64,000 nt of DNA from Solwaraspora sp. WMMD406. GTDB taxonomy: Bacteria > Actinomycetota > Actinomycetes > Mycobacteriales > Micromonosporaceae. The DNA lies in contig NZ_JARUBF010000001.1 in assembly GCF_029626025.1 (NCBI RefSeq), positions 4,992,001 through 5,056,000 on the forward strand, in the 5' to 3' direction. The notes under the pieces were generated by a model. It saw only the letters and a list, made by a program, of their open reading frames with translations. It was not told the origin of the DNA and made no database searches. Below are positions 42,265 to 57,218 of this stretch, one piece after another (positions within the stretch are counted from its first letter, which is position 1; each line of letters starts with the position of its first letter). Made by a program: the position numbers and the translations under genes.

Positions 42265-42319
42265 GATCCGCAGTCCCGGCGACCACCACCGGCGCCGCCG
42301 GCCTTCCGACGCGTCCCCC

Positions 42320-42431: not shown

Positions 42432-42482
42432 CCGGCGGCGGCTGCCCGTGTCCGAGGTCGACCGCGCGACGGCGGGGCGTGT

Positions 42483-43583
42483 TCAGCGCCGTACCCGGGC
42501 GTTGGAGCCGGCGGCCAGTGCCTCGACCTCCGGCAGACTGGCCATCGAGGTGTCACCCGGCGTGGTCATCGCCAGCGCACCGTGGGCCGTGCCGGATTCG
42601 AGGCTCACCCGCAGGTCGCCGTGCTCCAGCAGGCCGTGGAAGGCGCCGCAGGCGAAACCGTCGCCTCCGCCGACGCGGTCCAGGATCCGCAGGCCCGGCC
42701 GGTGCCGGGCGGCGACGAACCCGGTGTCGGCGGACCATCCGATGGCTCCCCAGTCGTTGACCGTGGCGGTCCGTACGGTACGCAGCGTCGCTGCCATGAT
42801 CGAAATGCCGGGGTAGGCCCGGACCACCCGGGAGATCGACCTCTCCGCACGGTCCACGCCCGGGTACGACAGATCCGCGTCAGTGTCCGGGGCGTCGGAG
42901 CCGAGGACAGTGGTGAAGTGGTCCTCGTTGCCGATCATCACGTCGACCATCCCGGCGATCCGCTGATTGACGTGTCGTGCCCGGTCCTGGCCGCCGACGT
43001 CGCGCCAGAGACTCGACCGGTAGTTGAGGTCGTACGAGACGATCGTGCCGTGCCGGCGGGCGGCGGCCACCGCCGTGGCGGCGGTGTCGGCGGCGGCCTC
43101 GGACAGGCCGACGTAGATGCCACCGGTGTGCAGCCACCGGACGCCGAGGACGCCGAACAGGTGGTCCCAGTCGACATCGGCGGGGCCGAGCTGGCTGACA
43201 GCGGTACGTCCACGGTCGGAGACGCCGACCGCGCCGCGCACGCCATGGCCGCGTTCGGTGAAGTTCAGCCCGTTACGGACGGCCCGGCCGACTCCGTCGT
43301 CGGGCACCCACCGGATCAGCGAGGTGTCCACACCACCCTGGAGCATCAGGTTCTCGACGAGCCGGCCGACCTCGTTGTCGGCCAGAGCCGTGACGACGGC
43401 GGTCCGCAGGCCGAAGCCCCGACGAAGTCCCCGAGCGACGTTGTACTCGCCACCGCCCTCCGAGACGGCGAAGGTCCGGGCGGTCCGTACCCGGCCCTCA
43501 CCGGGATCGAGGCGCAGCATCACCTCGCCGAGGGAGACGAGATCGAAGCGACATTCGGCGGCGGGCCGGACGGTCAGGATCAT
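42483..43583 (-). CDS. kdgK: PfkB-family sugar kinase, probable 2-keto-3-deoxygluconate kinase
   Basis: 366 residues of the ribokinase/PfkB fold. The N-terminal signature LVSLGEVMLRLDPGEG and GGGEYNVARGLRRGFGL are of the KDG-kinase type; the C-terminal catalytic motif is RVGGGDGFACGAF with the base Asp. In uronate degradation this enzyme makes KDPG from KDG. ATG 43583 is supported because it overlaps the stop of the micro-ORF before it as ATGA. Neighbours (uronate reductase, two lyases, transporter) fit the role. No KDPG aldolase is in the window. Confidence 0.88.
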   Translation of the reverse strand: MILTVRPAAECRFDLVSLGEVMLRLDPGEGRVRTARTFAVSEGGGEYNVARGLRRGFGLRTAVVTALADNEVGRLVENLMLQGGVDTSLIRWVPDDGVGRAVRNGLNFTERGHGVRGAVGVSDRGRTAVSQLGPADVDWDHLFGVLGVRWLHTGGIYVGLSEAAADTAATAVAAARRHGTIVSYDLNYRSSLWRDVGGQDRARHVNQRIAGMVDVMIGNEDHFTTVLGSDAPDTDADLSYPGVDRAERSISRVVRAYPGISIMAATLRTVRTATVNDWGAIGWSADTGFVAARHRPGLRILDRVGGGDGFACGAFHGLLEHGDLRVSLESGTAHGALAMTTPGDTSMASLPEVEALAAGSNARVRR

Positions 43584-43705
43584 CGGCCACGCTCGCGGGA
43601 CTGGTCCCACCTCTCACGGGCCGGTCCCGCGTCGGCGCCCACGTCGGACCGGTCGGTGGTCGTACCGGCGGTCCGTGCCGGGGCGGTGGTTCGTCGTCGC
43701 GTCAT
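43580..43705 (-). CDS. 41-residue micro-ORF coupled at both ends
   Basis: A 41-codon frame reads MTRRRTTAPARTAGTTT, then DRSDVGADAGPARERWDQ and ends SRERGR. Its ATG overlaps the stop of the DUF624 gene as ATGA, and its own stop overlaps the kinase ATG as ATGA. It fills the whole gap between the two genes. The product is basic and hydrophilic with no known family. It may be a real peptide or serve only to carry ribosomes across to the kinase gene. Confidence 0.55.
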   Translation of the reverse strand: MTRRRTTAPARTAGTTTDRSDVGADAGPARERWDQSRERGR

Positions 43706-44382
43706 GACGGCCGCTCCGCGCGAGCACCGAGCCGGTCCGCGAGCCGCAGGCCGAGCAGTAGCGGCAGCGTGGCACCCAGCAGCAGCGGGCCGAAGGCGAG
43801 CGGCGCGGTGACGATCGGCACCGCGACCACGGCGGCGAGCAGTGCCAACCCACGCCAGGGCGACGCGAAGGCGAACAGCAGCGCGGCGGGTCCCCAGCGT
43901 CCGGTGTCGCCGTCGGGATCACGCGCGGCGGTCACGGCCAACGCCAGATGGTACGGCACCAGAGCCAGGACCAGGCCGACCTGCAGGGCCAACAAGGCCG
44001 CCGCGTAGACACCCGGACGGGCGGCGAGAAAGACGGGATTGGCCACGAGCAGGACCATGGCCGTGGTGGACACCACGGCGTGGCGCCACAGCCGTTGCCA
44101 GTAGTGCCCGAACACGGCGAGCGCGCCGACGAACGGCCGGGCCCGCCTGCCCGCGCGCCACTGCTGCAGCGCGTGCCCCGTGGCGGCCAACGCCGGCAGC
44201 CAGGTGACGACGCCCAGGCTGAGCAGGAGCAGCGCGCACCCGGCCAGCGCCGGGTAGGCGACGTACTCCAGTATCCGCAGCGCGGTGGCTTCCCAGCCCT
44301 CCCGGTCGGGCGCCGCCGCGCCGCTTCGACGCCCGACGACTCCACCGCCGGGGACGGACGAGGCGGTGCTCAGGCCGGCCAC
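43702..44382 (-). CDS. DUF624 (YesL-like) integral membrane protein
   Basis: 226 residues from GTG 44382, overlapping the end of the lyase gene by 13 bases. Five to six membrane segments are visible (LAGCALLLLSLGVVTWLPAL, VVSTTAMVLLVANPVFL, YAAALLALQVGLVLALVPYH, ALLAAVVAVPIVTAPLAFG, LLLGATLPLLLGLRLA). The pattern LRILEYVAYPALAG, TWLPALAATGHAL belongs to DUF624, a family commonly encoded with polysaccharide-lyase and sugar ABC genes. The biochemical role is unknown; a helper of sugar uptake or sensing is suspected. Confidence 0.85.
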   Translation of the reverse strand: MAGLSTASSVPGGGVVGRRSGAAAPDREGWEATALRILEYVAYPALAGCALLLLSLGVVTWLPALAATGHALQQWRAGRRARPFVGALAVFGHYWQRLWRHAVVSTTAMVLLVANPVFLAARPGVYAAALLALQVGLVLALVPYHLALAVTAARDPDGDTGRWGPAALLFAFASPWRGLALLAAVVAVPIVTAPLAFGPLLLGATLPLLLGLRLADRLGARAERPS

Positions 44383-46421
44383 GGCAGCACCCCCGTCACC
44401 GGTTCGTCGCTGTGCAGCAGGCTGCGACCCGCCAGAACCACGTTGGTCGCCGAGACCACGCCCACCCGGGCGGGGCGGCCCTCGGAGGCGGGCAGCAGGA
44501 TCACTGCGGCGGCGTCGGCCCGGACGTCCGCCCCGTCGATCCGCCAGTTGACCGGTGCCAGGAGGACCGTCTCGCCGCCTTGCCCGAACCGTACCCCGAC
44601 CCCTTCGGCACAGCTCAGTGGTTCGGCCACGGCGGGATCCGGGGCCAGCGCGGACGTCGGTTCGACACTGGTGAGGATCCGGGTACGTGGGATCGGCGCC
44701 ACCCGGACCCGAATGGTGTGCAGGGAACGGACGATCCGCAGGCTCGGTGTGCTGCCGGTCGGGTTGGCCTCGATCTCCGTCGTCGTCTGGCTGACCGTGG
44801 CGGTGTCCGGAACGAACTGGCGCACGTACGCCTGCGCCGGTCCGGAGCGCAGCACGATGTCGCCGCCGGTGAGTTCGGCCGGCCAGTCCGAGTGCAGCAG
44901 GAAGGTCCACTCGCAGGGCCGGTCGGCGGCGAGCATGTCGAGGACGACCAGCCGGCCGGCCGGAGTGAAGACCAGGGTTCGGTCGACGCGCCGCACGCCG
45001 AGTGCCGGGTCGAACATGGCGGCCGATTCCGCCGTCGCGTGCACCAGCCCGTCGTCGGTGAGCACGTCTCGCAGCCGGGCCTGACGTTCGTAGGGCAGAT
45101 CCTGGTAGACGTGGTAGCGGTCCTCACCGGCCCAGCCCTGTCCGTCGACCAGGACAAGGTTGTGCTGGGCGGCCCGCTTGTTGTTGGAGTAGCCGTCGTC
45201 GACGGCGAGGAACGCGCCGTGCGCGCCGAACACGAACCCCCCGGCGTCGGGGTGGTGGTGACCGGCGTTGAGGGTCTGCCAGCCCTTGTCACGGCGGAAC
45301 CGCTCGGCGGTGTCCCAGGCGGTGTGCCCCCCGCCGGGGGCCGCATTGAAGCTGACGAAGGCCGCGTCGCCCTGCCAACTGGTCCGTGCCGTCACCTGGC
45401 CGAGGTCGGGAAAGTACGCGGAGGTCGGCACGGTGTCGGCGGGATCCACGGCCGGTACCTGCGGGTCGTACCAAAGCAGTTCGTAGCCGGCCTCCGGCAT
45501 GACGCCGGGCTTGACGCCGGAGGCGTACGCCTCCCGCCAGAAGTGCCGGTCGGCGACGTGGTCGGCGAGCCAGCGGGCCCGGCCGTCGCGGTAGGCGGCG
45601 GCGAGCTTGTGGTACAGCGCGACGCTGTGCCCGGACCGGCGGTCGTGGCAGTCCCCGTGGTCGATGTTCTCCTCGAACCCGGGGGCGCACTGGTGCAGGC
45701 GCCATTCGAGGGTACGTCCGAGGAAGTCACCCCGCCGCCACCAGTCGATGCCTTCGCAGTGTTGCAGCAGGTCGAGGTGGATTGCCAGCCAGGGCACCCC
45801 GTACCGCCAGTAGACGACGCCCTCGGAGTCAGAGCCGTCGCCCGGCATCAGGTCCAGCACCGTACCCAGGTTTTCCCGGGCCCGGTCGCTCCACCGTGGT
45901 TCGTCGAGCACGTATCCGGCGGCGGCGAGGCCGGCGTAGCAGATCCAGTTGTGGTTCTGCCAGTAGCTCGACGACCACCAGGTGCCCTCGGTTTCGACGG
46001 CGAAGGTGTACAGCCGGTCGCCTTGGAGCGTGAGCTTCGCGCGCAGCGCCGCCGCCTCGTCGTCGGGCAGGTCGTCGCGGAGCCAGGAGTAGGCCAGGGA
46101 CAGCCCGTGCAGCAGCCAGCCGGCGTCGAGGTCGTGGTCGGGCAGCTTCGCCTTGCCCCAGTGCGGGTAGGAGACCGCGGTGCGGATCCAGCGGCGGGCT
46201 TCGAGCAGGTAGCCGGCCTGGCCGGTGAGGCGGTACGCGAGGGCCAGGTTCATCGCGGCCGGGCCGAAGTAGGTGATGCTCGCGGTCGGGTGTTCCGCTG
46301 GTGGGCTTTGGTCGCGATACCAGGCGCACTGTTCGTACAGGCGCCGCCACTGACTGGCGTGGGTGGTGGTGAGGGCCGCTCGCAGCTGGTCGAGACGGCC
46401 GCCGATGAGCAGGGGTTGCAT
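44370..46421 (-). CDS. Heparinase II/III-superfamily polysaccharide lyase with DUF4962-like N-terminus (probable exo-oligoalginate lyase)
   Basis: 683 residues, no signal peptide, so cytoplasmic. The N-terminal alpha/alpha toroid part has ITYFGPAAMNLALAYRLTG, YSWLRDDLPDDEAAALR, SSYWQNHNWICYAGLAAAG and VYWRYGVPWLAIHL. The central and C-terminal beta part has LNAGHHHPDAGGFVFGAHG and LAVDDGYSNNKRAAQHN, with the His and Tyr residues expected for beta-elimination. This two-part layout matches PL15-like oligoalginate lyases such as Atu3025. The alginate substrate is inferred from the PL7 and PL6 genes nearby. The ATG overlaps the stop of the lyase gene upstream (TGATG). Confidence 0.85.
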   Translation of the reverse strand: MQPLLIGGRLDQLRAALTTTHASQWRRLYEQCAWYRDQSPPAEHPTASITYFGPAAMNLALAYRLTGQAGYLLEARRWIRTAVSYPHWGKAKLPDHDLDAGWLLHGLSLAYSWLRDDLPDDEAAALRAKLTLQGDRLYTFAVETEGTWWSSSYWQNHNWICYAGLAAAGYVLDEPRWSDRARENLGTVLDLMPGDGSDSEGVVYWRYGVPWLAIHLDLLQHCEGIDWWRRGDFLGRTLEWRLHQCAPGFEENIDHGDCHDRRSGHSVALYHKLAAAYRDGRARWLADHVADRHFWREAYASGVKPGVMPEAGYELLWYDPQVPAVDPADTVPTSAYFPDLGQVTARTSWQGDAAFVSFNAAPGGGHTAWDTAERFRRDKGWQTLNAGHHHPDAGGFVFGAHGAFLAVDDGYSNNKRAAQHNLVLVDGQGWAGEDRYHVYQDLPYERQARLRDVLTDDGLVHATAESAAMFDPALGVRRVDRTLVFTPAGRLVVLDMLAADRPCEWTFLLHSDWPAELTGGDIVLRSGPAQAYVRQFVPDTATVSQTTTEIEANPTGSTPSLRIVRSLHTIRVRVAPIPRTRILTSVEPTSALAPDPAVAEPLSCAEGVGVRFGQGGETVLLAPVNWRIDGADVRADAAAVILLPASEGRPARVGVVSATNVVLAGRSLLHSDEPVTGVLPWPA

Positions 46422-48007
46422 CAGCTCTCCATCCGGTAGATCGAACGGAAGGTCACGGTGGTCGCGTCGGTGGCGGTCCAGTCGACCCAGGAACGGATCC
46501 GCTGCGGGTCGTCTGCCGGCCCGGGACCGGGCCGGTAGAGCAGGCCGGCGGCGGCCGAGACGCTGTGCCGGCCACGCAGGGTCTGCCGGCCGCGCCAGAC
46601 CGTCTCCAGCGTCCCGTCGCCACCGGCGCGGACCGTCAGGTCGACGTCCGGTCGCAACTGGGCCGTGATCCGGCGCGGCCGGTCGGTCTCCACGGTCAGT
46701 TCGTCGACCAGCTCGCCGTCGCGCAGGGTCAGGTGTCGCCGGGCGGACACCCCGGGGTAGGCGGTGTCGCATCCGACGGCGACCGACCGGCTGTCGTGTC
46801 CGATCAGGTGGCCCGCGCACTCCGCCTGGTCCAGCCCGTCGACGGCGAACGTCGGGTGGGCGGCGGTCGAGGCGTAGTGGCCGCGCCAGCCCCGGTGCCC
46901 GTACGGCACCTGACCCGGGTCGGGCTGCCAGGGGGTGTCGTCGCCGTACAGATAGAGCGCCAACTTGTCGAGATGCCCGTGCGCACCGCCGTGCGGGCCG
47001 AAGTCGACGACGGCACGCAGCCCCGACCCGCTCAGCACCGCGTAGCCGGTCTCCGGATAGAGCGTCACCGGTCGAGGTCGACTCGCACCAGCGCCGATCA
47101 GCGGCAGCAGTTCCCGGAGCTCGTCCAGTTCGTACCGGGCCGGCGGCCGGTCGTACGGGCCGTCGTGCAGGGCGGGCAGCAGACCGCCGGGGGTGGTCAG
47201 GGTGTCGAGCACCCCGGCCATCGCGGTGAGCCGGGAGCTCACCTCGTCCGGCACCGCGACGTCGGGCAGCGCCTCCAGGGTCAGCAGGTACGCCCGCAGT
47301 ACGAACCCGTGGTAGTAGGTGGAGCCCTCCCACTCCCAGCCGTCGGGGCGGACCGCCGCGAGCGCATGGTCGCACATGCCGTGCCGGCCGTTCATCCACT
47401 CGGGATCTTCGGAGCAGGCCGCTCCTGCGGCGACCAGCCAGGCGGTGTAGTTGGAGTCGAACCGGCCGGCGGCGACCAACCCGTCGCGGGCCTGCCGGGC
47501 CGCCGTGTCCAGCGCGCGCAGCAGTTCGGGCACCTCGGCGGGCAGCGGCTGCCCGACCGCCCGCAGGGCGCGGGCGGCCTGGCCGATGGTCACCGCCCAG
47601 ATGGCCTCGGTCAGCGCCTGGTGGAACAGCCGACCGGGCAGCATCCAGTCGGCGGCACCGTCGTGGTGGGTCGTGCCGAGCGCCGCGTACCGCCGGGCGT
47701 AGACGGTGAGTAGGTCGACGGCCGTGTGGCGGTCGGCGTCCCGGCCCGACCGGGCGAGTGCGCGGATGTGTCGGGCGCACGCTTGATGGGCCAGGACCGT
47801 CCACGCGCCGCGTACCGACGGATCGTCGACCCGGCAGCCGTGCCGGCAGTGTGCGCCACCGGCCGGGAAGGCGCCGTCGAGCAGTCCGTCGTGGTCGAGT
47901 TCCACGCCGTGCGCCGGACAGACGTACGCGTGCCACCAGCCGCCGCGCTCGACGGGGAGTACCGGCGCGCGCAGCGGCGGTGCCGGTGCGCCGGTCACCG
48001 GAACCAT
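46421..48007 (-). CDS. Heparinase II/III-superfamily lyase, second type
   Basis: 528 residues, no signal peptide. The N-terminus has an unusual Cys/His-rich stretch (WWHAYVCPAHG, AHCRHGCRVDD) that could bind zinc. The toroid region has WMLPGRLFHQALTEAIWAV, SNYTAWLVAAGAACSED and WEWEGSTYYHGFVLRAYLL. The C-terminal domain carries the family signature FGPHGGAHGHLDKLALYLYG. It is only distantly similar to the next lyase, so the two probably handle different ends or block types of the oligomer. ATG 48007 lies inside the end of the SDR gene (13-base overlap). Confidence 0.85.
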   Translation of the reverse strand: MVPVTGAPAPPLRAPVLPVERGGWWHAYVCPAHGVELDHDGLLDGAFPAGGAHCRHGCRVDDPSVRGAWTVLAHQACARHIRALARSGRDADRHTAVDLLTVYARRYAALGTTHHDGAADWMLPGRLFHQALTEAIWAVTIGQAARALRAVGQPLPAEVPELLRALDTAARQARDGLVAAGRFDSNYTAWLVAAGAACSEDPEWMNGRHGMCDHALAAVRPDGWEWEGSTYYHGFVLRAYLLTLEALPDVAVPDEVSSRLTAMAGVLDTLTTPGGLLPALHDGPYDRPPARYELDELRELLPLIGAGASRPRPVTLYPETGYAVLSGSGLRAVVDFGPHGGAHGHLDKLALYLYGDDTPWQPDPGQVPYGHRGWRGHYASTAAHPTFAVDGLDQAECAGHLIGHDSRSVAVGCDTAYPGVSARRHLTLRDGELVDELTVETDRPRRITAQLRPDVDLTVRAGGDGTLETVWRGRQTLRGRHSVSAAAGLLYRPGPGPADDPQRIRSWVDWTATDATTVTFRSIYRMES

Positions 48008-48762
48008 GCGCCACCGTCGATGTCGACCGTTGCTCCGGTGATGTAGGAGGCGGCGTCGGAGGCGAGCCACACGACCGCGCCGGCGACGTCCTCGGGACGG
48101 CCGCCCCGGCCCAGTGGCACCCCCGCGATGATCGCCTCCTGGGTCTGCGCCGGAGTGAACGTGTCGTGGAAGGCGGTGCCGCCGATGAATCCGGGGGCGA
48201 CCGCGTTCACCGTCGTGCCGGTGACCGCCAACTCCTTGGCGAGTCCTTTGGTCAGGCCACGCACGGCGGCCTTCGCGGCCGCGTACACCGCCGATCCAGC
48301 GCCCCCGCCGTTCTGGGCGGCCAGCGACGACATGGTGATCACCCGCCCCGCCGTACCGGCGGCCCGAAGGTGTGGGATCGCGGCTCGCACGGTCCGGAAG
48401 GTGCTGCCCAGGTTGAGGTCGACGACCTGGTCGAAGTGCTCGTCGGTCATGTCCGCCACCGGGCTACGGCCGACCATTCCACCCGCGTTGCAGACCAGGA
48501 TCTCCAGGCCGCCGAGGAAGCCCGTGGCGTCTTCGACGAGTGCGGCCACCTCGCTCGTCCGGGTGAGGTCGGCCTGCCGTACGACGGTTTTGCGACCCAG
48601 CGCCTCGATGGCCGCGGCCACTTCGGCGGCCGGAGCGGCGGAATGTCCGTGGTGGACGGCGACGTCCGCCCCGGCCCGGGCGAGCGCGACGGCGATGGCG
48701 GCGCCGATGCCATGGCCGGCACCCGTGACCAGGGCCCGACGCCCAGCCAGATCGATATTCAT
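47995..48762 (-). CDS. SDR-family oxidoreductase, probable unsaturated-uronate (DEH) reductase
   Basis: 255 residues, classical short-chain dehydrogenase. NAD(P)-binding motif TGAGHGIG, NAG in VCNAGGM, catalytic Ser in TMSSLAAQ and YxxxK in SAVYAAAKAAVRG are all present. ATG 48762 has the strong site AAAGGAG. In alginate pathways an SDR reduces 4-deoxy-5-hexoseulose uronate to KDG. Its place between the sugar transporter and two lyases, with a KDG-type kinase downstream, supports that reaction; a KduD-like activity is the alternative. Confidence 0.88.
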   Translation of the reverse strand: MNIDLAGRRALVTGAGHGIGAAIAVALARAGADVAVHHGHSAAPAAEVAAAIEALGRKTVVRQADLTRTSEVAALVEDATGFLGGLEILVCNAGGMVGRSPVADMTDEHFDQVVDLNLGSTFRTVRAAIPHLRAAGTAGRVITMSSLAAQNGGGAGSAVYAAAKAAVRGLTKGLAKELAVTGTTVNAVAPGFIGGTAFHDTFTPAQTQEAIIAGVPLGRGGRPEDVAGAVVWLASDAASYITGATVDIDGGAWFR

Positions 48763-48774
48763 CAAGATACTCCT

Positions 48775-49638
48775 TTACTTGATTCCGGCGGTGGCGAAGC
48801 CCTGCACGAAGTACCGCTGGGCGAACAGGAACAGAACGATCATCGGTACGGTGGCCAGCGTCGATCCGGCCATCAGGTAGGACCATTCGGTCCGCTCGGC
48901 CTGTTGGAAGGCCGCCAGACCGACCTGGATCACCCGCAGGTCGTCACGGGTGGTGACCAGCAGCGGCCAGAGGAAGTTGTTCCAGCTGTTTTCGAAGGTG
49001 ACCAGGGCGACGGTCGCGACGGCTGGTTTCACCAACGGTGTCATCACCCGGGCGAAGATCCCGAACTCGCCCATTCCGTCGATACGGGCGGCCTCCTCCA
49101 GTTCACGCGGCAGGGAGAGGTAGAACTGCCGGAACAGGAAGATCGCGAACGGGGTGAGCGCGCCCGGAACGATCAGGACCCACCACGAGTCGAGCCAGCC
49201 GTAGCCGCCCCGGCCGAGGTAGTCGTTGCCGCCGAAGAACGGCATTCCCTTGGCGATCAGGTACTGCGGGACGATCTTCGTGTAGGTCGGGATCATCATC
49301 ATCGCGAGGATGGCCATGAACAGCACGGTCCTGCCCCGGAACGGGACCCGGGCCAGCGCGTAGCCGGCCATCGTCGCCAGCATCAGGTTGATCACCGTGT
49401 GCCCGACGGCGATCAGCAGGCTGTTGCGGAAGTACGTCCCGAACGGGGCGTAGTCCAGTGCCGCCTGGTAGTTGCTCCACACCCATTCGGTCGGCAGCAG
49501 TTGTGGCGGGTAGGCCGCGATGTCGGCGCGGCTCTTGACCGACGTCAGGATCATCCAGACGAACGGAACGATCATGATGAGTCCGCCGAGACCAAGCAGC
49601 AGGTGCAGCATCCAGCGGGCGTCGAACTTACGCTTCAT
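48775..49638 (-). CDS. Carbohydrate ABC transporter permease, MalG type
   Basis: 287 residues, six membrane helices (LLLGLGGLIMIVPFVWMIL, YFRNSLLIAVGHTVINLMLA, LFMAILAMMMIPTYTKIVP, WVLIVPGALTPFAIFLFR and others). The EAA loop reads LEEAARIDGMGEFGIFARVM then PLVKPAVATV. CUT1-type permease for oligosaccharides. It overlaps the MalF-type gene by 11 bases. With that gene and the binding protein it forms the importer of the locus; no ATPase gene is present, so a shared MsiK-like ATPase elsewhere is expected, as in many actinobacteria. Confidence 0.94.
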   Translation of the reverse strand: MKRKFDARWMLHLLLGLGGLIMIVPFVWMILTSVKSRADIAAYPPQLLPTEWVWSNYQAALDYAPFGTYFRNSLLIAVGHTVINLMLATMAGYALARVPFRGRTVLFMAILAMMMIPTYTKIVPQYLIAKGMPFFGGNDYLGRGGYGWLDSWWVLIVPGALTPFAIFLFRQFYLSLPRELEEAARIDGMGEFGIFARVMTPLVKPAVATVALVTFENSWNNFLWPLLVTTRDDLRVIQVGLAAFQQAERTEWSYLMAGSTLATVPMIVLFLFAQRYFVQGFATAGIK

Positions 49639-50578
49639 CGCCGTCCTTCCCGGTCAGTCGGCGCCCGATCACCGTCAGGACGAGCAGAAAGGCGAAGAGC
49701 ACCACGCTCTGCGCACAGGCCGCCGAGATGTCGAACTCGCCGAACGCCGTCCGGTAGATCTCGTACGTCATGACGGTCGTCGAGTTCGCCGGGCCGCCGT
49801 CGGGAGTCAGCACGTACACCTGGTCGAAGACCTGGAACGCGTCGATCATGGAGACGATGAAGACGAAGAACGTGGCGGGTTTCAGCAACGGCAGAGTGAT
49901 CGCGAAGAACTTGCGGGGGCCGGAGGCACCGTCGAGATCCGCCGCCTCATACAGGTCGTGCGGGATGTTCTGCAAGGCCGCCAAGTAGATCAGCATCTTC
50001 AGACCGATGCCTTTCCAGATGCTGACGAGGATGACCGCCGGCATCGCCCAGGTGGGGTCCGACAGCCAGGCCGGCCCGTTGACCCCGACCCAGCCCAGCA
50101 GCAGGTTGAACAGCCCCAGGTTGGGCTCGAACATCCACATCCAGACCAGTGCGATCGCGACGGTGGCGGTGATGTGCGGCATGAAGAACGCCGCGCGATA
50201 CCAGGCCAGCGCCTTGATCCGCTGGTTGAGCAGCACCGCGATGACCACCGCGATCGCCATCGCCACCGGGACGGTGAAGAAGGTGAAGACGACGGTGTGC
50301 CAGATCGACAGGTTCCAGATGTCGTCGGCGAAGATCTCGCGGAAGTTGTCCAGGCCGGCCCACTCGACGGTGCCGGCGATGATGTCGTAGTCGGTGAAGG
50401 CCAGGCCGAACGTGGCCACCACGGGTAGGCCGATCCACCAGATCAGGTGGATGACCGACGGGGCCAGCATCAGGTACGCCGCACGGCGACGGTCGGCACC
50501 CAGCCTTCGGCGACGGCGGGGCGGGCGTGGCGCCCGACTCGCGGACGCCACGCTCACGGTTTCGAGGGTGCTGGTCAT
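49628..50578 (-). CDS. Carbohydrate ABC transporter permease, MalF type
   Basis: 316 residues. A basic N-terminal tail (RAPRPPRRRRRLGADRRRA) precedes six helices; the conserved EAA loop is YEAADLDGASGPRKFFAI then TLPLLKPATFF. ATG 50578 follows the binding-protein stop by one base. Channel partner of the MalG-type subunit in a CUT1 importer, probably for alginate oligosaccharides. Confidence 0.94.
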   Translation of the reverse strand: MTSTLETVSVASASRAPRPPRRRRRLGADRRRAAYLMLAPSVIHLIWWIGLPVVATFGLAFTDYDIIAGTVEWAGLDNFREIFADDIWNLSIWHTVVFTFFTVPVAMAIAVVIAVLLNQRIKALAWYRAAFFMPHITATVAIALVWMWMFEPNLGLFNLLLGWVGVNGPAWLSDPTWAMPAVILVSIWKGIGLKMLIYLAALQNIPHDLYEAADLDGASGPRKFFAITLPLLKPATFFVFIVSMIDAFQVFDQVYVLTPDGGPANSTTVMTYEIYRTAFGEFDISAACAQSVVLFAFLLVLTVIGRRLTGKDGDEA

Positions 50579-50579
50579 G

Positions 50580-51866
50580 TCAGCCCTTGGCGATTGCTGC
50601 CTGGGCCTTGACCACCAGCTCGTCGAGTGCCTGCTGTGGGTCCTTCTGGCCCAGCAGGGCCGACTCGATGGCCGCCTTGAAGTCGCCCCGGATCTCCAGC
50701 CATTCCGGCACCCCACCTTCGGAGTAGGCGGCGTCGAGGTTCGCCATGGCGAACTGCGCGGCCGGGTTGCTCCGCACGTAGTCGGAGTCGGCCAGGCTGT
50801 TGAGTGCCGGCACGTTGCCCCGCTGCTCGTTCGCGGCGAGCGACGCCTGTTCGCCGGTGAGGAAGCTGACCAACGCCTTGGCCGCCGCCGGACGCTGCGA
50901 CTTGGCCGAAACCGTGGCCAGCGTCCCACCCTGGAACATCGCGGGACACTCATTGTTGATCATGAAGAAGCCGATCTTGTCTTCCTTGATCAGCTCCGGT
51001 GCCTGCTCCTCGATCGCCAACAGGTGGTTGTTGTGTCCCACCATCATCGCCGCCCGCCCCTGGGCCAGCGGCAGGCCGGTGGCACCGGGTTGGGTGAAGC
51101 CGAAGTCCTCGCTCTTGTCGGTGAGGATGATGTCGGTCATCAGTTGCAACGCCCCGACCGCCTCCGGGCTGTTGAAGGCCGGCTGCCCGTCGGAGGTCCA
51201 CAGCTCGCCGCCGTTGGCCCACATCAGCGGGAGGAACGTCTGTCGCAGATCGTTGGAGAGGATGTCCACGCCGGCACGGGTGAGCTTGCCGCTGCCGTCT
51301 CGCACGGTCAGCTGGCGCCCGATCTCCCGCAGCTCGGCGAAGTTGGTCGGCGGGGCGGCGATGCCCGCCTCGGCGAATATGTCCTTGCGGTACAGGCCGA
51401 ACCGGGTGTCCAGCATGATCGGCAGGCCGTACACCTTGCCCTGGTAGATGCCGGGCTCGACGACCCGCTCGTTGTACCGCTCGGTGAGCTCCTGCTTCTT
51501 CTCGTCCAGCTCGGCAAGGGCCCCCTTCGCCGCGAACGGCGGAATCCAGCCGACCCCCATGAGCATCACGTCGTACGGCCGGCCTCCGGCGATCGACGTG
51601 GTGAGCTTCTCGTTGAGCTTGCCGTACGTGGTGTAGTCGACCTCGACGGTGATGTCCGGGTACTGCTCCTTGAAGGCGACGAGCTGCTCCTCCAGCACGG
51701 TCTTGCCGTCCGCGCCCTCGAAGATCGGCGTCAACAGCCGGATCGTGCCGCTGGTCTGGTCGTCGCCTTCCGTCGTGGTCGCCGGACCGCCACAGGCGGT
51801 GGTGAGCAGCGCGACGGCAAGCGCTACCGTCATCGCACGCGTCCGGCTCCCCCGGGTTCTGGTCAT
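50580..51866 (-). CDS. Sugar ABC transporter substrate-binding lipoprotein
   Basis: 428 residues. Lipobox LLTTACGG puts the lipidated Cys near residue 25. The body is a CUT1 family 1 binding protein (IRLLTPIFEGADGKTVLEEQ, FKEQYPDITVEVDYTTYG, YDVMLMGVGWIPPFAAKG, GKVYGLPIMLDTRFGLYRK, ANGGELWTSDGQPAFNSPEA). ATG 51866 has AGGAGAGAGGG upstream. First gene of the minus-strand uronate operon, behind a promoter overlapped by a LacI-type operator. Confidence 0.94.
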   Translation of the reverse strand: MTRTRGSRTRAMTVALAVALLTTACGGPATTTEGDDQTSGTIRLLTPIFEGADGKTVLEEQLVAFKEQYPDITVEVDYTTYGKLNEKLTTSIAGGRPYDVMLMGVGWIPPFAAKGALAELDEKKQELTERYNERVVEPGIYQGKVYGLPIMLDTRFGLYRKDIFAEAGIAAPPTNFAELREIGRQLTVRDGSGKLTRAGVDILSNDLRQTFLPLMWANGGELWTSDGQPAFNSPEAVGALQLMTDIILTDKSEDFGFTQPGATGLPLAQGRAAMMVGHNNHLLAIEEQAPELIKEDKIGFFMINNECPAMFQGGTLATVSAKSQRPAAAKALVSFLTGEQASLAANEQRGNVPALNSLADSDYVRSNPAAQFAMANLDAAYSEGGVPEWLEIRGDFKAAIESALLGQKDPQQALDELVVKAQAAIAKG

Positions 51867-51944
51867 CCTGGCCCTCTCTCCTGCGGCAGACTTCGCCGCC
51901 CTGGGTGACTGCGACAACACGATCCGGATCGCGGTCGCGGGCTT

Positions 51945-51958
51945 TGCATCGATTTACT
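51945..51958. promoter_or_regulatory. Shared motif TGCATCGATTTACT at the transporter promoter
   Basis: This 14-base AT-rich motif recurs exactly, on the opposite strand, at 57219-57232 upstream of the FAH-family gene. It lies just downstream of the LacI-type operator in the transporter leader. Its core ATCGAT is palindromic. The IclR protein of the locus is a candidate binder. Confidence 0.5.
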
Positions 51959-51963
51959 GGTGG

Positions 51964-51980
51964 AACGTTGCAGCAACGTT
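51964..51980. promoter_or_regulatory. LacI-type operator AACGTTGCAGCAACGTT
   Basis: A perfect 17-base palindrome with an A centre, overlapping the -10 element and likely start of the binding-protein promoter. A weaker related sequence (TTTACTGGAAACCCTTGCAG, from 52033) lies nearer the lacI gene. Binding by the divergent LacI protein is expected. Confidence 0.75.
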
Positions 51981-52004
51981 AGGGGCGAGGTGCAGCGCTG
52001 TCAA
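51976..52004 (-). promoter_or_regulatory. Sigma-70-type promoter of the uronate operon
   Basis: On the minus strand TTGACA (51999-52004) is followed after 17 bases by TAACGT (51976-51981). The -35 is a perfect consensus and the -10 lies within the operator, so LacI binding would block RNA polymerase. Confidence 0.65.
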
Positions 52005-52122
52005 TGGCTAGACACAGCGCCGAAACATCCGCTTTACTGGAAACCCTTGCAGCGGTCACGAGCTGGTAAACCGCCACACTCGGCTGGCCCAAGATCCGCC
52101 GAACAACCGGAGAAGCGCGAAC

Positions 52123-53184
52123 GTGAGCGGTGTGACGATTCACCAGGTGGCCCGGGAGGCTGGCGTCTCGCCCAGCACCGTGTCGAACTTCCTCAACGGA
52201 CGCCCCGAGCGGATGCTGCCCCAGACCCGCGAACGCGTGGCCGAAGCGATCGATCGGCTCGGTTACCGCCCCAACCGCGCCGCACGGCAACTACGCACCG
52301 GCCGGATCCAGGTGATCGGGCTCGTCGTGCCCTCGGTGGCCAACCCGTTCTGGGGCAGCTTCGCCCGCTACCTGGAGCGAGCCGCGCTGGGCGACGGTTA
52401 CCACGTGCTGCTCTGCAACAGCGAGCGGGAACCCGATCGAGAGCGGCGGTACCTCGAGGAACTCTGGGCCGACGGCATCCGAGGCGTCGTCCTCTGCTCC
52501 TCACTGCCTTCGCTGGACCATGTGCTGCCACTCGTCGAGACAGGACTCAGCCTCGTCGCGTTCGACCGCACCGCCCAGGCAGGCGACCCGGGCACACTGG
52601 TCAACATCAGCGTCGACAACGTCGTCGGCACCCACCTCGCCACCACCCATCTCCTCCGACTCGGTCACCGCCGAATCGCCTTCGTCTCCGGTTCCCTGCG
52701 CAGCGTCAACCGCCGCGAGCGGTTCCGCGGCTTCACCGACGCCTTCGAGCAGGCAGGCCTCGATCCCGCCGAGGCCATCGTGTGGTCCGGCGGCGCGGAG
52801 CAGGAGCCCTACGGCGACCTCGACGCCGCCGGCCTCGGTCGCCGGGCAGCGCACGAGTTGCTACAAACGGCCGATCGCCCGACCGCCATCGTCGCGATCA
52901 ACGACATGTGCGCGCTCGGCATCAGTGCCGGCATCCGAGACGCCGGACTGCGGGTGGGACAGGACATCTCCGTGGTCGGCTTCGACGACATCGTGCTCGC
53001 CGACCTCGCGGCACCACCGCTGACCACGGTACGCCAGCCGATCGCGGACATGGCGGCGGCGGCGTTCCGACACTTGCGCTCCCGGATCGACGATACCGAC
53101 ACCGGTCCCAGTCAATCGCTGCTGCTCCGTCCGGAGCTGGTGGTCCGTGCCTCGACCGGTCCGGTGCCGCACGCGAGGGAGTAG
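52123..53184 (+). CDS. LacI-family transcriptional regulator
   Basis: 353 residues from GTG 52123, with GGAGAAG upstream. The LacI helix-turn-helix reads VTIHQVAREAGVSPSTVSNF then LNGRPERMLPQTRERV, with YRPNRAARQLRTGR as hinge. The periplasmic-binding-protein-like sensor follows (IGLVVPSVANPFWGSFARYL, VAFDRTA, ISVVGFDDIVLADLAAPPLT). Divergent from the binding-protein operon with a clear operator between them. The inducer is probably an alginate breakdown product, by context. Confidence 0.93.
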   Translation: MSGVTIHQVAREAGVSPSTVSNFLNGRPERMLPQTRERVAEAIDRLGYRPNRAARQLRTGRIQVIGLVVPSVANPFWGSFARYLERAALGDGYHVLLCNSEREPDRERRYLEELWADGIRGVVLCSSLPSLDHVLPLVETGLSLVAFDRTAQAGDPGTLVNISVDNVVGTHLATTHLLRLGHRRIAFVSGSLRSVNRRERFRGFTDAFEQAGLDPAEAIVWSGGAEQEPYGDLDAAGLGRRAAHELLQTADRPTAIVAINDMCALGISAGIRDAGLRVGQDISVVGFDDIVLADLAAPPLTTVRQPIADMAAAAFRHLRSRIDDTDTGPSQSLLLRPELVVRASTGPVPHARE

Positions 53185-53194
53185 GAACACGACG

Positions 53195-53947
53195 ATGACC
53201 GCAGACGGCACCTCCCGGGTCAAGTCGGCAGATCGCACCGTCGAGCTGCTGGAACTGCTCGCCGCCACTCCGGACCGGCGCACACTCGTGGAGCTCGCCC
53301 GAGACCTGGGGATCCCCAAGAGCAGCATGCATGGTCTGCTGCGTACCCTCGTACAACGGGGGTGGGTGGAGACCGACACCGCGGGGTCACGCTACGGTTT
53401 GGGCGTCCAGGCCCTCCGGACGGGCGCCGCCTACCTGCGCACCGACCGTGCGGTCCGGCGTCTCACTCCGGTAGTCGACCTGCTGCACCGCCAGCTCGAC
53501 ACCACCGTCCAACTGGGTCGACTGGTCGGTGGACACATGGTCTGCCTGCTGACGCGGGAGAAGTCCGACGTGCGCCCCATGCTCCGGACAGAGTGGCCCG
53601 CCCCGGCGTACGCCACCGCGATCGGGCGGGTGGTGTTGGCCCGCGTCGCTGACGACGACGAAGCGCTGGCGCGGATCCTGTCCGCCTCGGCCGCGCTGGC
53701 TCCGGCTGACCTCAGGGCGCTGCGCGACGAACTCCTCCAGGTCGTCGAACGTGGACATGCTGTCGACCAGAGGTCAGCCGACCCGGACGGCGGCTACGGC
53801 GTGGCGGTGGCCGCCCCGCCCAAGCTCGGCCCGTACGACGCGATCGGCGTCTGCGTACCCGAGGGTGATCTGACCGCGGATCGCGTCAGCGAGCTCGCTG
53901 ACGCGATCCGCGCAGCGATCATCGCCGGCCTGACCGGCCGAATTTAA
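53195..53947 (+). CDS. IclR-family transcriptional regulator
   Basis: 250 residues. Winged helix at about residues 12-75 (ADRTVELLELLAATPDRRTL, LARDLGIPKSSMHGLLRTL) and the IclR effector domain after it (YATAIGRVVLARVADDD, GYGVAVAAPPKLGPYDAIGV). Starts 10 bases after the lacI stop, so both regulators are co-transcribed. IclR proteins such as KdgR respond to KDG in uronate pathways, which would fit the kinase and reductase of this locus. Confidence 0.92.
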   Translation: MTADGTSRVKSADRTVELLELLAATPDRRTLVELARDLGIPKSSMHGLLRTLVQRGWVETDTAGSRYGLGVQALRTGAAYLRTDRAVRRLTPVVDLLHRQLDTTVQLGRLVGGHMVCLLTREKSDVRPMLRTEWPAPAYATAIGRVVLARVADDDEALARILSASAALAPADLRALRDELLQVVERGHAVDQRSADPDGGYGVAVAAPPKLGPYDAIGVCVPEGDLTADRVSELADAIRAAIIAGLTGRI

Positions 53948-53965
53948 CAATCTTGGAATTTATCG

Positions 53966-53994
53966 TTGACCAGACAGCAATCTTCTTCTATGGT
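53966..53994 (+). promoter_or_regulatory. Promoter of the PL7 alginate lyase gene
   Basis: TTGACC (53966-53971), a 17-base spacer and TATGGT (53989-53994) lie in an AT-rich stretch 59 bases upstream of the lyase ATG. Confidence 0.6.
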
Positions 53995-54052
53995 CACTCG
54001 GCACTAGTGCGGCATAGTTCACATATAGGAACTCTCACTACCGAGGACCCCA

Positions 54053-55207
54053 ATGAGACGATTTGCAATCCTCGCGCTCCCCGCCGCCCTCATCATCGCC
54101 AGCCCCGCGCTGACCGTCCTCCCCGCCCAGGCCGCCACGGCCCTGCCGGTCGCTGCGGTGACCGCCAGCTCCCACGACGGCAACCTGCCAGCCAACGCCA
54201 TCGACGGCAGCCTTTCCACCCGTTGGTCAGCCCAGGGCAACGGCTCATGGCTCCGTCTCGACCTTGGTGCCAGCAAGCAGGTCGGCTCAGTCGGCATCGC
54301 CTGGTACAACGGCAACCAACGCCAGGCCACCTTCGCTGTCCAGACGTCGACCGACGCGAGCTCCTGGACGACCGTCGTCCCCCAGCGGCAGAGCAGCGGC
54401 AGCACGTTGCAGGTGGAGGACTACGACTTCGCCGACCGGTCGGCCCGGTACGTGCGCGTCGTCGGTTACGGCAACACGGCCAACAACTGGAACAGCATCA
54501 CCGAGGCAAAGGTCTACGGTGCCGACGGCGGCGGCGGCGACTGCACCGTCCCCGCCGACGTGCTCAATCTGACCAACTGGAAGATCACCCTGCCGACCGG
54601 CTCCTCTGGCAGCCCGACCGAGATCAAGCAACCTGCCCTGAGCGGCTTCCAGGTTTCCCCCTACTTCATCACCGCCGACTCGTGCCAGTCGGTCCAGTTC
54701 CGCTCCCCGGTCAACGGGGTCACCACGAGCGGATCCAGCTACGCCCGCTCCGAGCTGCGTGAAATGGCGAACAACGGATCAAGCAACGCGAGTTGGTCGT
54801 CGACCTCCGGCACGCACACCCTGGTCGTGGACGCCGCCTTCGACACACTGCCCTCGACCAAGCCGCACGTGGTGGTCGCCCAGATCCACGACTCCGACGA
54901 CGACGTCACCGTCTTCCGACTGGAGGGCACCAGCCTCTACGTCACCAACGACAACGACACCCATTACCACCTGGTGACCAGCAACTACCAGCTGGGCACG
55001 CGGTTCCAGGCCAAGTTCGTGGTCAGTGGCGGCCAGGTGAGGGCGTACTACAACGGCGTCCTGCAGACCACCATCACCAAGAGCTTCTCCGGCGCCTACT
55101 TCAAAGCCGGTGCCTACACCCAGGCGAACTGTTCCAACTCCTCACCCTGCAGCAGCAACAACTACGGGCAGACGCGAATCTTCGGACTCACCGTCACCCA
55201 CTCATGA
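54053..55207 (+). CDS. Secreted alginate lyase PL7 with N-terminal CBM32
   Basis: 384 residues. Signal peptide to about residue 28 (VLPAQA). Residues about 30-155 are an F5/8-type (CBM32) module (SSHDGNLPANAIDGSLSTRW, WLRLDLGASKQVGSVGIAWY, ARYVRVVGYGNT). Residues about 165-384 are a PL7 jelly roll with all three signatures: RSELRE (Arg about 231), QIH (about 280) and YFKAGAYTQ (about 348). These hold the catalytic Arg, Gln, His and Tyr. The extracellular enzyme depolymerises alginate and feeds the importer. It has its own promoter and a GAGGA ribosome site. Two cysteines near the end (ANCSNSSPCSS) may be disulphide-bonded. Confidence 0.95.
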   Translation: MRRFAILALPAALIIASPALTVLPAQAATALPVAAVTASSHDGNLPANAIDGSLSTRWSAQGNGSWLRLDLGASKQVGSVGIAWYNGNQRQATFAVQTSTDASSWTTVVPQRQSSGSTLQVEDYDFADRSARYVRVVGYGNTANNWNSITEAKVYGADGGGGDCTVPADVLNLTNWKITLPTGSSGSPTEIKQPALSGFQVSPYFITADSCQSVQFRSPVNGVTTSGSSYARSELREMANNGSSNASWSSTSGTHTLVVDAAFDTLPSTKPHVVVAQIHDSDDDVTVFRLEGTSLYVTNDNDTHYHLVTSNYQLGTRFQAKFVVSGGQVRAYYNGVLQTTITKSFSGAYFKAGAYTQANCSNSSPCSSNNYGQTRIFGLTVTHS

Positions 55208-55381
55208 TGCGGTCGCCGCCCGGGTGCTTCGGCCCCGGGCGGCGCCACTCTCTCCCCACCAGTACGACCACCGCGCGGTCGTTTCGCTGTCCACCTGCGC
55301 GGTCAGCACAGCGACCAGGATCAGGCACCAACAGACACTCAAGGATTGGACTCCGATACTCAAACCCTCGAGGGGATCGAA

Positions 55382-56116
55382 GTGAATCGAATATGGCAGG
55401 GTCCCACCGGCACGGTCGTCGTCGCGGTTCTCGTAGGTAGCGCCCTCACCGTACCGTCTCCACTCGCCGCGACCGGCAGTGGATCGGGTCAGGGCGGGGC
55501 CACCCGTTTCGACACGACCAGTGCCGATTCGCTGCCCATCTGCGGCATGAGCGCGAGTGGTGACGACGGCAACAGGCGGCGTCCGCGTCTACGGCCAGGA
55601 TCATAGGATTTACAACAACCACTTCGAAGGACTCACCGGCACGGGCTACGACGCGGCGTTGCAGCTCGACGGAGGCGATGTCGACACCTCGGGCGCGCTC
55701 TCGGCTCACTGGCGTGTGTACCGGATTACCGTGGTACACAACACCTTCGTCAACAACGCCTCGAACATCGAGATCGGAGCCAACTACACCCTCGCCCCGG
55801 TCGACAGCATGGTGGCCGACAACCTCGTCGTCGGCGGTCAGGGCAAGCTGTTCAACGAGCTGAGAACGCCGGTGAACATGACGTATGCCGGCAACATCGG
55901 CTGGGTGACCGGTTCAGCCAGCGTCGGTGTCCCCGAGGGCGTACGAGTCGTCGATCCGCTACTGAGCGCACAGGGTGAGGTGTATCGAATCGCACCCGGC
56001 AGTCCTGCGGCCGACACCGCCACAGGCGCCTACGCCTTCGTCACCGAAGACATGGACGGTCAGCCCCGAAGCGGTGTACCCGACGTCGGCCCGATGAACG
56101 GTCCCCCGCCTTGGTC
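55382..56116 (+). pseudogene. PL6 alginate lyase remnant with internal deletion
   Basis: GTG 55382, behind GAGGGG, starts a signal peptide (NRIWQGPTG, VVVAVLVGSALTVPSPLAA) followed by a short secreted stretch. Near 55555 the frame changes and the C-terminal half of a PL6 beta-helix begins: GGVRVYGQDHRIYNNHFEGL, SAHWRVYRITVVHNTFVNN, KLFNELRTPVNMTYAGNIGW, YRIAPGSPAADTATGAY, TEDMDGQPRSGVPDVG. The first half of the catalytic domain is missing and the normal stop after DVG is lost. A deletion with frameshift is the simplest cause. The remnant supports an alginate role for the locus. Confidence 0.8.
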
Positions 56117-56293
56117 GTCCGGGCACCGCTCACCCCGACGGATGTCGGCATCCACGCGCTCTGACAATCGGATCGGGATCTGGTCCGCAGCCACACGTGC
56201 CCTGGGCGGCGGACCAGATTGCGCGGGAGGATCAGCGAGGGCACGGCCCGGACGGCGACACCCGCCGGCCATCGAACGACGTCGGGTTCTCCG

Positions 56294-57136
56294 TCACGCC
56301 GCCGGACGACACGTCTGGCGCTGTTCCCCCAGCCCTTCGATGCCCGCCCGCACTACGTCGCCGTCGCTGAGATAGGGGAACCGACCGGACATCGCTACTC
56401 CTTCTGGCGTGCCGGTGTTGACCACGTCACCGGGCTCCAGCACCAGATACTGACTGAGATACCAGACCAGGTGGTAGACATCGAAAATCATGTCCTGGGT
56501 GGTGGATGCCTGCCGAGGCTGGTCGTTGACGTAGCTGCTCAAGGCGAGACGCTGTGGATCGTCGATCTCGTCTGCGGTGACCAGCCAGGGTCCCAGCGGA
56601 TTGAACGACTCGCAGCTCTTGCCCCTGACCAGTTGACCGCCGGAGTCGTTGCGTTGGAATTCCCGCTCGGACAGATCGTTCGATACGGCATATCCGGCGA
56701 TGACGTCGCCCGCGTCCGCGGGCGACGCCAGATAATGGGCTCGCCGACCGATGACGACGGCCAGCTCGACCTCCCAGTCGGTCTTGGTCGATCCCCGCGG
56801 CAGGATGATCTCGTCGAAGGGCCCTACCACGGTGTTGGATGCCTTGAGGAACACAACCGGCTCAGCCGGCGGCGCGGCACCGGACTCCGCCGCGTGCCGG
56901 GCGTAGTTGAGCCCGACGCAGGCCACCGTACCCGGTCTGGCGACCGGCGCACCGACGCGAACGCCGCTGACATCGAGCTGGGGTAGGTCGCCCGCCGCCA
57001 TGGCGGCGCGCGCTCGATCGATGCCGCCGCCAGCAAGGAAAGCGGCGTCGATGTCATCGGTGACGCCGGTCAGATCGAAATGACGACCGTCGACGAGCAG
57101 CACAGGTCGCTCCTGGCCCCGGGGGCCGATCCGCAT
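56294..57136 (-). CDS. Fumarylacetoacetate hydrolase-family protein
   Basis: 280 residues, FAH fold. Conserved segments: VACVGLNYARHAAESG, PVVFLKASNTVVGPFDEI, TDWEVELAVVIGRRA with metal-ligand Glu, YAVSNDLSEREFQ, PLGPWLVTADEI and GDVVNTGTPEGVAMSG. Members cleave C-C bonds of diketo acids or act as hydratases in sugar-acid pathways. ATG 57136 follows GTGAGG. It shares a 14-base upstream motif with the transporter promoter, so it probably belongs to the uronate regulon, perhaps processing a keto-deoxy acid. The exact substrate is not known. Confidence 0.88.
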   Translation of the reverse strand: MRIGPRGQERPVLLVDGRHFDLTGVTDDIDAAFLAGGGIDRARAAMAAGDLPQLDVSGVRVGAPVARPGTVACVGLNYARHAAESGAAPPAEPVVFLKASNTVVGPFDEIILPRGSTKTDWEVELAVVIGRRAHYLASPADAGDVIAGYAVSNDLSEREFQRNDSGGQLVRGKSCESFNPLGPWLVTADEIDDPQRLALSSYVNDQPRQASTTQDMIFDVYHLVWYLSQYLVLEPGDVVNTGTPEGVAMSGRFPYLSDGDVVRAGIEGLGEQRQTCRPAA

Positions 57137-57218
57137 GAGCCTCACGATCAATCCTCTCGATACAGGACAGGTCGACACCGGAACCGCACGGCATCACCGA
57201 GATCACCCGGCCGGTCGT

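Follow-up and report, generated by a model that had tools for sequence, protein, structure and literature searches.

The locus and its conserved core

The window analyzed here is a 64-kb stretch of DNA from Solwaraspora sp. WMMD406 (contig 1, bases 4992001-5056000; genome size 7.16 Mb; GC content 65-74% per 2-kb step). It harbors an almost complete set of genes that very probably forms a LacI-controlled regulon for the catabolism of alginate through 4-deoxy-L-erythro-5-hexoseulose uronate (DEH) and 2-keto-3-deoxygluconate (KDG). From position 51920 downward the minus strand encodes a solute-binding protein (SBP), two CUT1 permeases, a short-chain dehydrogenase/reductase (SDR), a PL17-like lyase, a PL15-like lyase, a DUF624-like protein, a kinase, and a major facilitator superfamily (MFS) transporter. 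The plus strand from 52123 carries the genes for a LacI-family and an IclR-family regulator, a CBM32-PL7 lyase gene, and the remnant of a PL6 gene, and the gene of a fumarylacetoacetate hydrolase (FAH) family hydrolase is read from 57136 on the minus strand. The genes from the SBP to the DUF624-like protein abut or overlap, the largest gap by coordinates being 12 bases, which makes the arrangement operon-like. An earlier sequence-only reading had placed an alginate utilisation locus at 42483-57136. Its right end is the ATG of the FAH gene, but neither this gene, with its predicted LacI operator upstream, nor the MFS gene had been named, and both belong to the picture. The SDR, the KDG-type kinase, the CUT1 importer, and the LacI and IclR regulators that it listed are all present by Pfam or NCBIfam.

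A scan of genome contigs with the PL15-like lyase (P0001) gave 144 relatives; the best 80 of the 144 were used and were sorted by record title into 71 actinobacterial loci and 9 others. The core, with LacI divergent from the SBP, the two permeases, the SDR, and the PL17-like and PL15-like lyases, has the same order in 67 of the 71 actinobacterial loci, and the four exceptions (L020, L028, L048, and L051) are short records that start inside the core and run off contig ends. Since this order is conserved, the gene set is more than a chance assembly. The gene order had been singled out as deserving attention; it is real, but it is common to many actinobacteria and not specific to the strain. The LacI arrangement is missing from all nine non-actinobacterial loci, some of which are short records, and the Chloroflexi loci L076 and L084 retain the SDR and the PL17-like and PL15-like genes in this order. 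The flanks around the loci extended to at most 10 kb, hence the counts of accessory genes are lower bounds: among the 71 loci, a DUF624-like gene is in place in at least 55, an MFS relative in at least 17, any kinase match in at least 15, a PL7 catalytic domain in at least 12, IclR in at least 5, FAH in at least 4, and PL6 in at least 3.

The closest named relatives of P0001 are from Verrucosispora sioxanthis (85% identical), Micromonospora marina (84%), and Micromonospora sp. HNM0581 (83%). When 250 genomes of the family (44 genera) were drawn and a P0001 relative at E<=1e-100 was taken as the marker of the core, 9 genomes in 6 genera were positive, a patchy distribution; two of the seven genomes of the genus group have the core. 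The linear 682-kb Streptomyces plasmid NZ_CP108024.1 (L150) carries the whole core together with two annotated PL7 genes, hinting at spread by plasmids. In its annotation at least the PL15-like and DUF624-like proteins are called hypothetical.

Lyases, importer, and probable enzymes of monomer catabolism

The CBM32-PL7 gene (54053-55207, plus strand) matches PF08787 with 157.1 bits against a cut-off of 29.7 (E 7.8e-46) and also encodes an F5/8-C (CBM32-like) domain (PF00754, 72.5 bits). The signature motifs of CAZy family PL7 are R(S)EL, QIH, and YFKAGxYxQ, and the translation contains RSEL, QIH, and YFKAGAYTQ, as had been claimed from the sequence. The best solved relative is the polyguluronate lyase 1uai (E 8.6e-97), which we take to be Corynebacterium ALY-1, and the catalytic domain can be aligned along its length. 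The glucuronan lyase, the sole non-alginate PL7 enzyme listed, scores far below the alginate lyases. By these comparisons the protein is assigned to the endo-alginate lyases, and its N-terminus, judged by eye, is probably that of a secreted protein. The genome contains three PL7-domain genes.

The PL6 gene that follows (55382-56165, plus strand) is broken, in agreement with the sequence-only reading. An intact relative in V. sioxanthis (L196) encodes a CBM32-PL6 protein of 646 residues. The remnant aligns to residues 1-65 (31% identical) and 450-622 (82%, and weakly to 645) of this protein in two different frames, with the junction near 55572 and about 383 codons missing. As the alignment has it, the gene is a deletion remnant, with an internal deletion and a frame change, and does not encode a complete catalytic beta-helix. 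Relatives with open frames are present in V. sioxanthis, M. marina, and HNM0581 (L196, L197, and L201). No PL6 gene was found at the corresponding place in the sister genome G004 (L189), where the distance between the PL7 and FAH genes is 157 bases.

The two core lyases had been read as heparinase-II/III proteins. PF07940 scores above its cut-off for the product of 46421-48007 (minus strand; P0003), and both PF07940 and DUF4962 score below cut-off for that of 44370-46421 (minus strand; P0001). A profile of 33 P0003-type sequences found PL17 enzymes first (8bdd, 9irq, 4nei, 4ok4, and 7bjt, E 1.1e-26 to 2.2e-21). With an AlphaFold2 model of the protein (mean predicted local distance difference test (pLDDT) 92.2), Foldseek ranks 1-10 were all PL17, with 16-18% identity over these ten chains; the closest family in both the profile and the predicted fold is therefore PL17. 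In PL17 an Asn-His pair (Asn199/His200) is described as conserved in the available text on the family (PMC12336832). The matching pair in the window protein, assigned by reading the profile alignment, is N186-Y187. It is invariant in all 33 alignment rows, and Asn-Tyr was found in 71 of 73 PL17-like copies (70 by pattern and L012 by eye), the other two, L020 and L028, being partial. At their N-terminus (the first 60 residues in the window protein), most PL17-like proteins also have the pattern GGWWHxYVCPxHG...CxxGC, some of the later cysteines being absent in the two Chloroflexi members; it could be metal-binding.

For the PL15-like enzyme, the profile gave the dermatan sulfate epimerase 6hzn (E 2.6e-38) and the alginate lyase Atu3025, 3a0o (E 2.6e-34). 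With its model (pLDDT 91.8), Foldseek placed 6hzn on top, then 3a0o/3afl, then Dp0100 (6jp4), presumably PL39. The motifs WQNHNW, EG(V/P)VYW, and HxHPD, whose residues we take to have catalytic roles, are present in all 81 copies checked. The enzyme is probably an exo-oligoalginate lyase, as profile, model, and motifs suggest.

The SDR (47995-48762, minus strand; adh_short_C2, E 1e-55) has among its solved relatives the DEH reductases 4w7i, 3afm, and 4tkl of the A1-R/A1-R' type (E 3e-45 to 3e-44) and by this likeness is a probable DEH reductase. The PfkB-family kinase (42483-43610, minus strand; PF00294, 61.7 bits) has the KDG kinase 2afb as its best solved relative (E 5e-37) and is a probable KDG kinase. 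The importer consists of permease 1 (MalF/UgpA type; 49628-50578, minus strand; NCBIfam UgpA 165.1 bits), permease 2 (MalG/UgpE type; 48775-49638, minus strand; UgpE 117.9 bits), and the extracellular SBP (50580-51920, minus strand; GanS 84.6 bits). These three scores are all below cut-off; the order of the permeases is conserved and the SBP has carbohydrate-binding relatives in the PDB.

None of the genes identified from 41104 to 57178 encodes an ABC ATPase. The sequence-only reading had observed this correctly and had listed the missing ATPase among the features deserving attention. A UgpC/MsiK-type ATPase gene is present elsewhere in the genome (451.2 bits, cut-off 432), so a locus without its own is probably ordinary; this shared ATPase, we infer, energises the importer. 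The KDPG (2-keto-3-deoxy-6-phosphogluconate) aldolase is likewise encoded outside the locus, its single gene, which matches PF01081 with 225.5 bits, lying at C1:5867756, and members of the aldolase family lie within loci L012, L013, L022, and L050 (Pfam was run on the L012 member). At C1:5866-5870 kb (L002, L113) the aldolase is accompanied by a KDG-type kinase (73% identical to the one in the window) and an IclR protein (43%), a paralogous kinase-IclR set.

A search of the genome found no KduI, which argues against a route of the pectin or hyaluronan type; it is on stereochemical grounds that KduI marks such a route. With the Ilyobacter cupin as the sole query for KdgF, the genome gave only a 27% match (E 4e-5) far from the locus, with the same kind of match in G004, and G007, G026, G033, G022, G023, and W01 gave none. 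The available account of Vibrio sp. C42 states that the ring-opening conversion of the KdgF type also occurs spontaneously (PMC13390454).

The predicted LacI operator, the FAH-family hydrolase, and flanking genes

The LacI-family regulator (52123-53184, plus strand; PF13377 and PF00356 above cut-off), which is divergent from the core operon, is followed by the IclR-family regulator (53195-53947, plus strand; PF09339 and PF01614 above cut-off), a gene also present between LacI and PL7 in L189, L196, and L197. A 20-base position weight matrix (PWM) was built from the regions between the LacI and SBP genes of 67 loci and of the window, 68 in all, with one best site forced per region. Columns T5, A8, C10, G11, T13, and A16 are identical in all 68 regions, and the conserved motif is CTGGTAAATCGATGCACTGA. 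The palindrome AACGTTGCAGCAACGTT, considered at first as the operator, was rejected, since of the regions compared only the window has this form. Two overlapping predicted operators lie between LacI and the SBP (51941-51976), with 19.4 bits at 51941, a training site, and 15.4 bits at 51957; they include the exact 13-mer GTAAATCGATGCA.

The highest-scoring site of the window, with 20.2 bits, is outside the training set; it lies at 57217-57236 and precedes the ATG of the FAH gene by 81 bases. When the window was shuffled 100 times with a first-order Markov model, the highest score was 19.4 bits, short of 20.2, and four of the shuffled windows reached 14.3. In shuffled DNA there were two sites above 17 bits in 1,073,526 bases, and one in 100 windows had a site above 17 bits, so that sites of 14-17 bits are weak when taken alone. 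Exact copies of the 13-mer GTAAATCGATGCA occur twice in the 7.16-Mb genome, at the core and FAH sites; with up to two mismatches there are 24 matches, compared with 6 for the reversed control pattern.

Further sites were found ahead of other genes. At C1:6072-6075 kb (L112 8472-11044) there are two adjacent PL7-domain genes, and an 18.4-bit site (C1:6072107) is located 367 bases ahead of them. The first of the pair (437 residues) scores around the PL7 cut-off, just below it in one run and just above in another; it also has a weak CBM_4_9 domain, just below cut-off. In G117 (L191) a 25.1-bit site precedes the beginning of the PL7 match by about 240 bases, and in the Isoptericola loci L052 and L054 a 25.0-bit site lies ahead of a CBM32-bearing gene. 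Sites of the LacI type were also seen behind the DUF624 gene of G117 (27.8 bits, L191 15061) and at L192 7090 (25.3 bits). The KDPG-aldolase locus was left out of the regulon because its best site has only 9.8 bits. LacI is predicted to bind at these operator-like sites.

The FAH-family hydrolase (P0006; 56294-57136, minus strand; PF01557, 222.7 bits) is a predicted member of this regulon. Its best solved relative is the L-2,4-diketo-3-deoxyrhamnonate hydrolase 8gsr (E 1.5e-61), and it scores 278.7 bits, below the cut-off of 500, against the 2,4-didehydro-3-deoxy-L-rhamnonate hydrolase model NF053535. A search of 33 genomes gave matches in 30, and in the 30 FAH loci sites above 14 bits within 450 bases upstream were counted. 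Four loci have such a site: V. sioxanthis (27.6 bits), HNM0581 (21.4), M. marina (19.5), and the sister G004 (L115; 14.3), the last being the weakest counted and of the weak 14-17-bit class. Their FAH proteins share 77-81% identity with P0006, and all four are encoded beside the core. In three other loci of the set (L133, L135, and L136) the FAH gene is directly downstream of LacI, before a kinase gene, and in L054 it is beside LacI. The remaining 23 of the 30 have neither such a site nor an adjacent LacI gene; for Kribbella soli (L121) a 16.8-bit site was seen 596 bp upstream. As a second control, the 29 best further FAH loci of the family draw were scanned. Sites of 19.5-20.2 bits were present only in the window itself and, again, in M. 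marina, and the remaining 27 (66-72% identity) had at most 1.8 bits upstream; three of these, L178, L179, and L186, are from genomes with the core elsewhere. Within the genus group, both core-bearing genomes encode FAH proteins of the 79-100% type, and the five genomes that lack the core have only relatives of 43-45%. Of the 250 family genomes, 173 contain FAH relatives at E<=1e-85, compared with 9 for the core, which rules out FAH presence alone as a marker of the locus; the link is made by adjacency plus the operator site.

On these data the FAH enzyme is probably co-regulated with the core. It could instead be an unrelated neighbour from another sugar-acid pathway, of the L-rhamnonate/L-fuconate type, with an operator-like site that arose by chance. 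We regard this as rather unlikely, even if the wide occurrence of its relatives, the three core-bearing genomes with a site-less relative elsewhere, the 23 loci with neither site nor LacI, and the nature of its best solved relative are what such a neighbour would give. Chance does not account well for sites in the four relatives at 77-81% identity, all beside the core, when all 27 at 66-72% identity have at most 1.8 bits, nor for the only two exact 13-mers of the genome being those of the core and the FAH gene, nor for the association with LacI in L133, L135, L136, and L054.

As for the role of a co-regulated FAH enzyme, we propose only tentatively that it performs an unrecognised step of alginate catabolism in several lineages (the window clade; Isoptericola, Paraoerskovia, and Sediminihabitans; Vibrio C42). 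It might take the place of KdgF and open or tautomerise the unsaturated monomer; alternatively, it might cleave a 2,4-diketo-3-deoxy acid formed by oxidation of DEH or KDG; the latter, if true, would give a phosphate-free branch. Vibrio sp. C42 has a FAH-family gene (JFJ08_17855) inside its alginate locus, which the available account calls not apparently related (PMC13390454). An oxidative DEH branch has been described for Flavobacterium, which shows that the standard route can have side branches; the main text of that article mentions neither FAH nor fumarylacetoacetate (PMC8563752).

Among the flanking genes, the DUF624/YesL-like membrane protein (43702-44382, minus strand), submitted as a longer open reading frame (ORF), gave no Pfam match. 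Its homologue in L022 matches PF04854 with 26.8 bits (cut-off 24.2) and that in L052 has no match. The MFS transporter (41104-42264, minus strand) is a recurrent downstream neighbour of the core, the 17 loci counted above having relatives of more than 40% identity; its nearest NCBIfam model is MdtH, with 162 bits against a cut-off of 469. A micro-ORF had also been listed. An ORF of 41 codons does exist at 43580-43705, but we do not retain it as a gene: six loci of four relative genomes held no convincing counterpart, and the nearest candidate, a match of 20 residues (65%, E 1.4), occupies the same position in the sister genome (L189). Just past the locus are a tRNA-Val(CAC) at 57777-57851 and an SsgA-like sporulation gene at 58702-59217.

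The proposed pathway, its substrate, and known systems

In the proposed pathway, the secreted CBM32-PL7 enzyme would cleave alginate outside the cell, and the SBP and the two permeases, powered by the shared UgpC/MsiK-type ATPase, would take up unsaturated oligouronates. The PL17-like and PL15-like enzymes would liberate the unsaturated monomer in the cell, and this would open to DEH. The SDR would reduce DEH to KDG, the kinase would convert KDG to KDPG, and the KDPG aldolase encoded elsewhere would yield pyruvate and glyceraldehyde-3-phosphate. A pathway intermediate would free LacI from the operators of the core operon, the FAH gene, and the second PL7 pair. The DEH-KDG route already put forward by the sequence-only reading is supported by the PL7 assignment to the polyguluronate lyases, the PL17-like and PL15-like folds, the SDR and the 2afb-like kinase, the conserved order of the core, the operator recurring before PL7 genes, the failure to find KduI, and the presence of the aldolase and the ATPase; the substrate, the order of the steps, the enzyme activities, and the inducer are deduced from sequence.

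Several observations weigh against this interpretation. The PL17-like enzyme appears to lack the conserved PL17 His, with Tyr in its place; in both profile and fold searches dermatan sulfate epimerase has a slight lead over PL15 as the match of the PL15-like enzyme; and the SDR scores higher to 3edm, 4yqy, and 2ph3, none of them DEH reductases, than to the DEH reductases. In the PWM scan neither the kinase gene nor the PL7 gene of the window had an operator immediately ahead of it; the PL7 gene could be read through from LacI-IclR. Many Streptomyces and Kribbella cores are followed by other genes (e.g., L024 12180-18198): a beta-helix protein in 35 of the 71 loci, a PL8-type lyase in 30, and an AXE1-type esterase in 30, these labels coming from Pfam on one representative each. 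Loci L008, L011, L012, and L014 have both the beta-helix protein and PL7. Finally, in a survey of 88 polar isolates from alginate plates, 5.7% were Actinobacteria, but the 60 able to grow with alginate alone belonged to the Proteobacteria and Bacteroidetes (PMC7874173).

These flanking genes suggest that in Streptomyces and Kribbella the core may be used for polyuronates other than alginate or for acetylated ones. Carried further, the core would be for a different polymer altogether (glucuronan, an acetylated bacterial polyuronate, or a glycosaminoglycan-like polymer), with PL7 and PL6 as local additions. We consider this improbable: the PL8, beta-helix, and AXE1 neighbours and the nearness of the PL15-like enzyme to dermatan sulfate epimerase would fit, but the same operator lies ahead of PL7 genes in two genomes, KduI was not found, and the closest fold of one lyase is PL17. 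A Streptomyces PL8 enzyme, Aly16-1, degrades alginate and acts on several acidic substrates, as its available description states (PMC11596371). The core may thus serve alginate and related polyuronates. It is very improbable that the locus is decaying in a strain that no longer grows on alginate, as the broken PL6 gene and its absence from the matching place in the sister genome might suggest, given that the other genes are open frames, that the sister retains them at 74-98% identity, and that three PL7-domain genes remain.

An alginate regulon of this kind can be compared with known systems. The alginate utilisation locus of Vibrio sp. C42, as far as its published account is available, likewise combines endo-lyases and oligo-lyases, a DEH reductase, and a KDG kinase, but it includes kdgF and eda, has regulators of the GntR type, and possesses SSS and TTT importers in addition to an ABC transporter (PMC13390454). 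The window, in contrast, has a CUT1 importer and LacI/IclR regulation, its aldolase is encoded elsewhere, and KdgF was not found. Agrobacterium also has PL15 clusters, in A. tumefaciens that of Atu3025. In the PL15 cluster on plasmid pDG3-1g of A. salinitolerans, CUT1-type permeases, an SBP, an alginate lyase, and an SDR are side by side as here; its own ugpC ATPase, its GntR regulator, and its single annotated lyase in 19.7 kb (23% identical to P0001) are differences, with the reservation that the annotation is possibly incomplete. On plasmid pILYOP01 of Ilyobacter polytropus a DUF4962 lyase adjoins a heparinase-II/III lyase and an SDR, as in the window, but it is accompanied by a cupin (KdgF-like by position) and a sodium:solute symporter, and the second lyase has NK where NY is found here, the place being matched by eye. 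The PL7 lyases of Corynebacterium (ALY-1), Streptomyces (ALG-5), and Isoptericola are endo-lyases like that of the window, but the available accounts treat them as single enzymes and not as part of an intracellular pathway locus (PMC9181867). The literature search found single actinobacterial alginate lyases and no account of a whole actinobacterial alginate locus, most subscription papers being outside the search.

The locus appears to be a functional alginate regulon that is ordinary in its logic and has two unusual enzymes, the PL17-like lyase with Tyr and the FAH hydrolase. The conserved core and the operator-like motif give testable functions to proteins called hypothetical and make the regulon itself testable. 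They also raise the biochemical questions of how a lyase of the PL17 fold works with Tyr in place of His and what role a FAH hydrolase has in uronate catabolism. If the FAH enzyme does perform a step of alginate catabolism, this and the Asn-Tyr lyases together would make the actinobacterial system biochemically distinct from the Gram-negative one.

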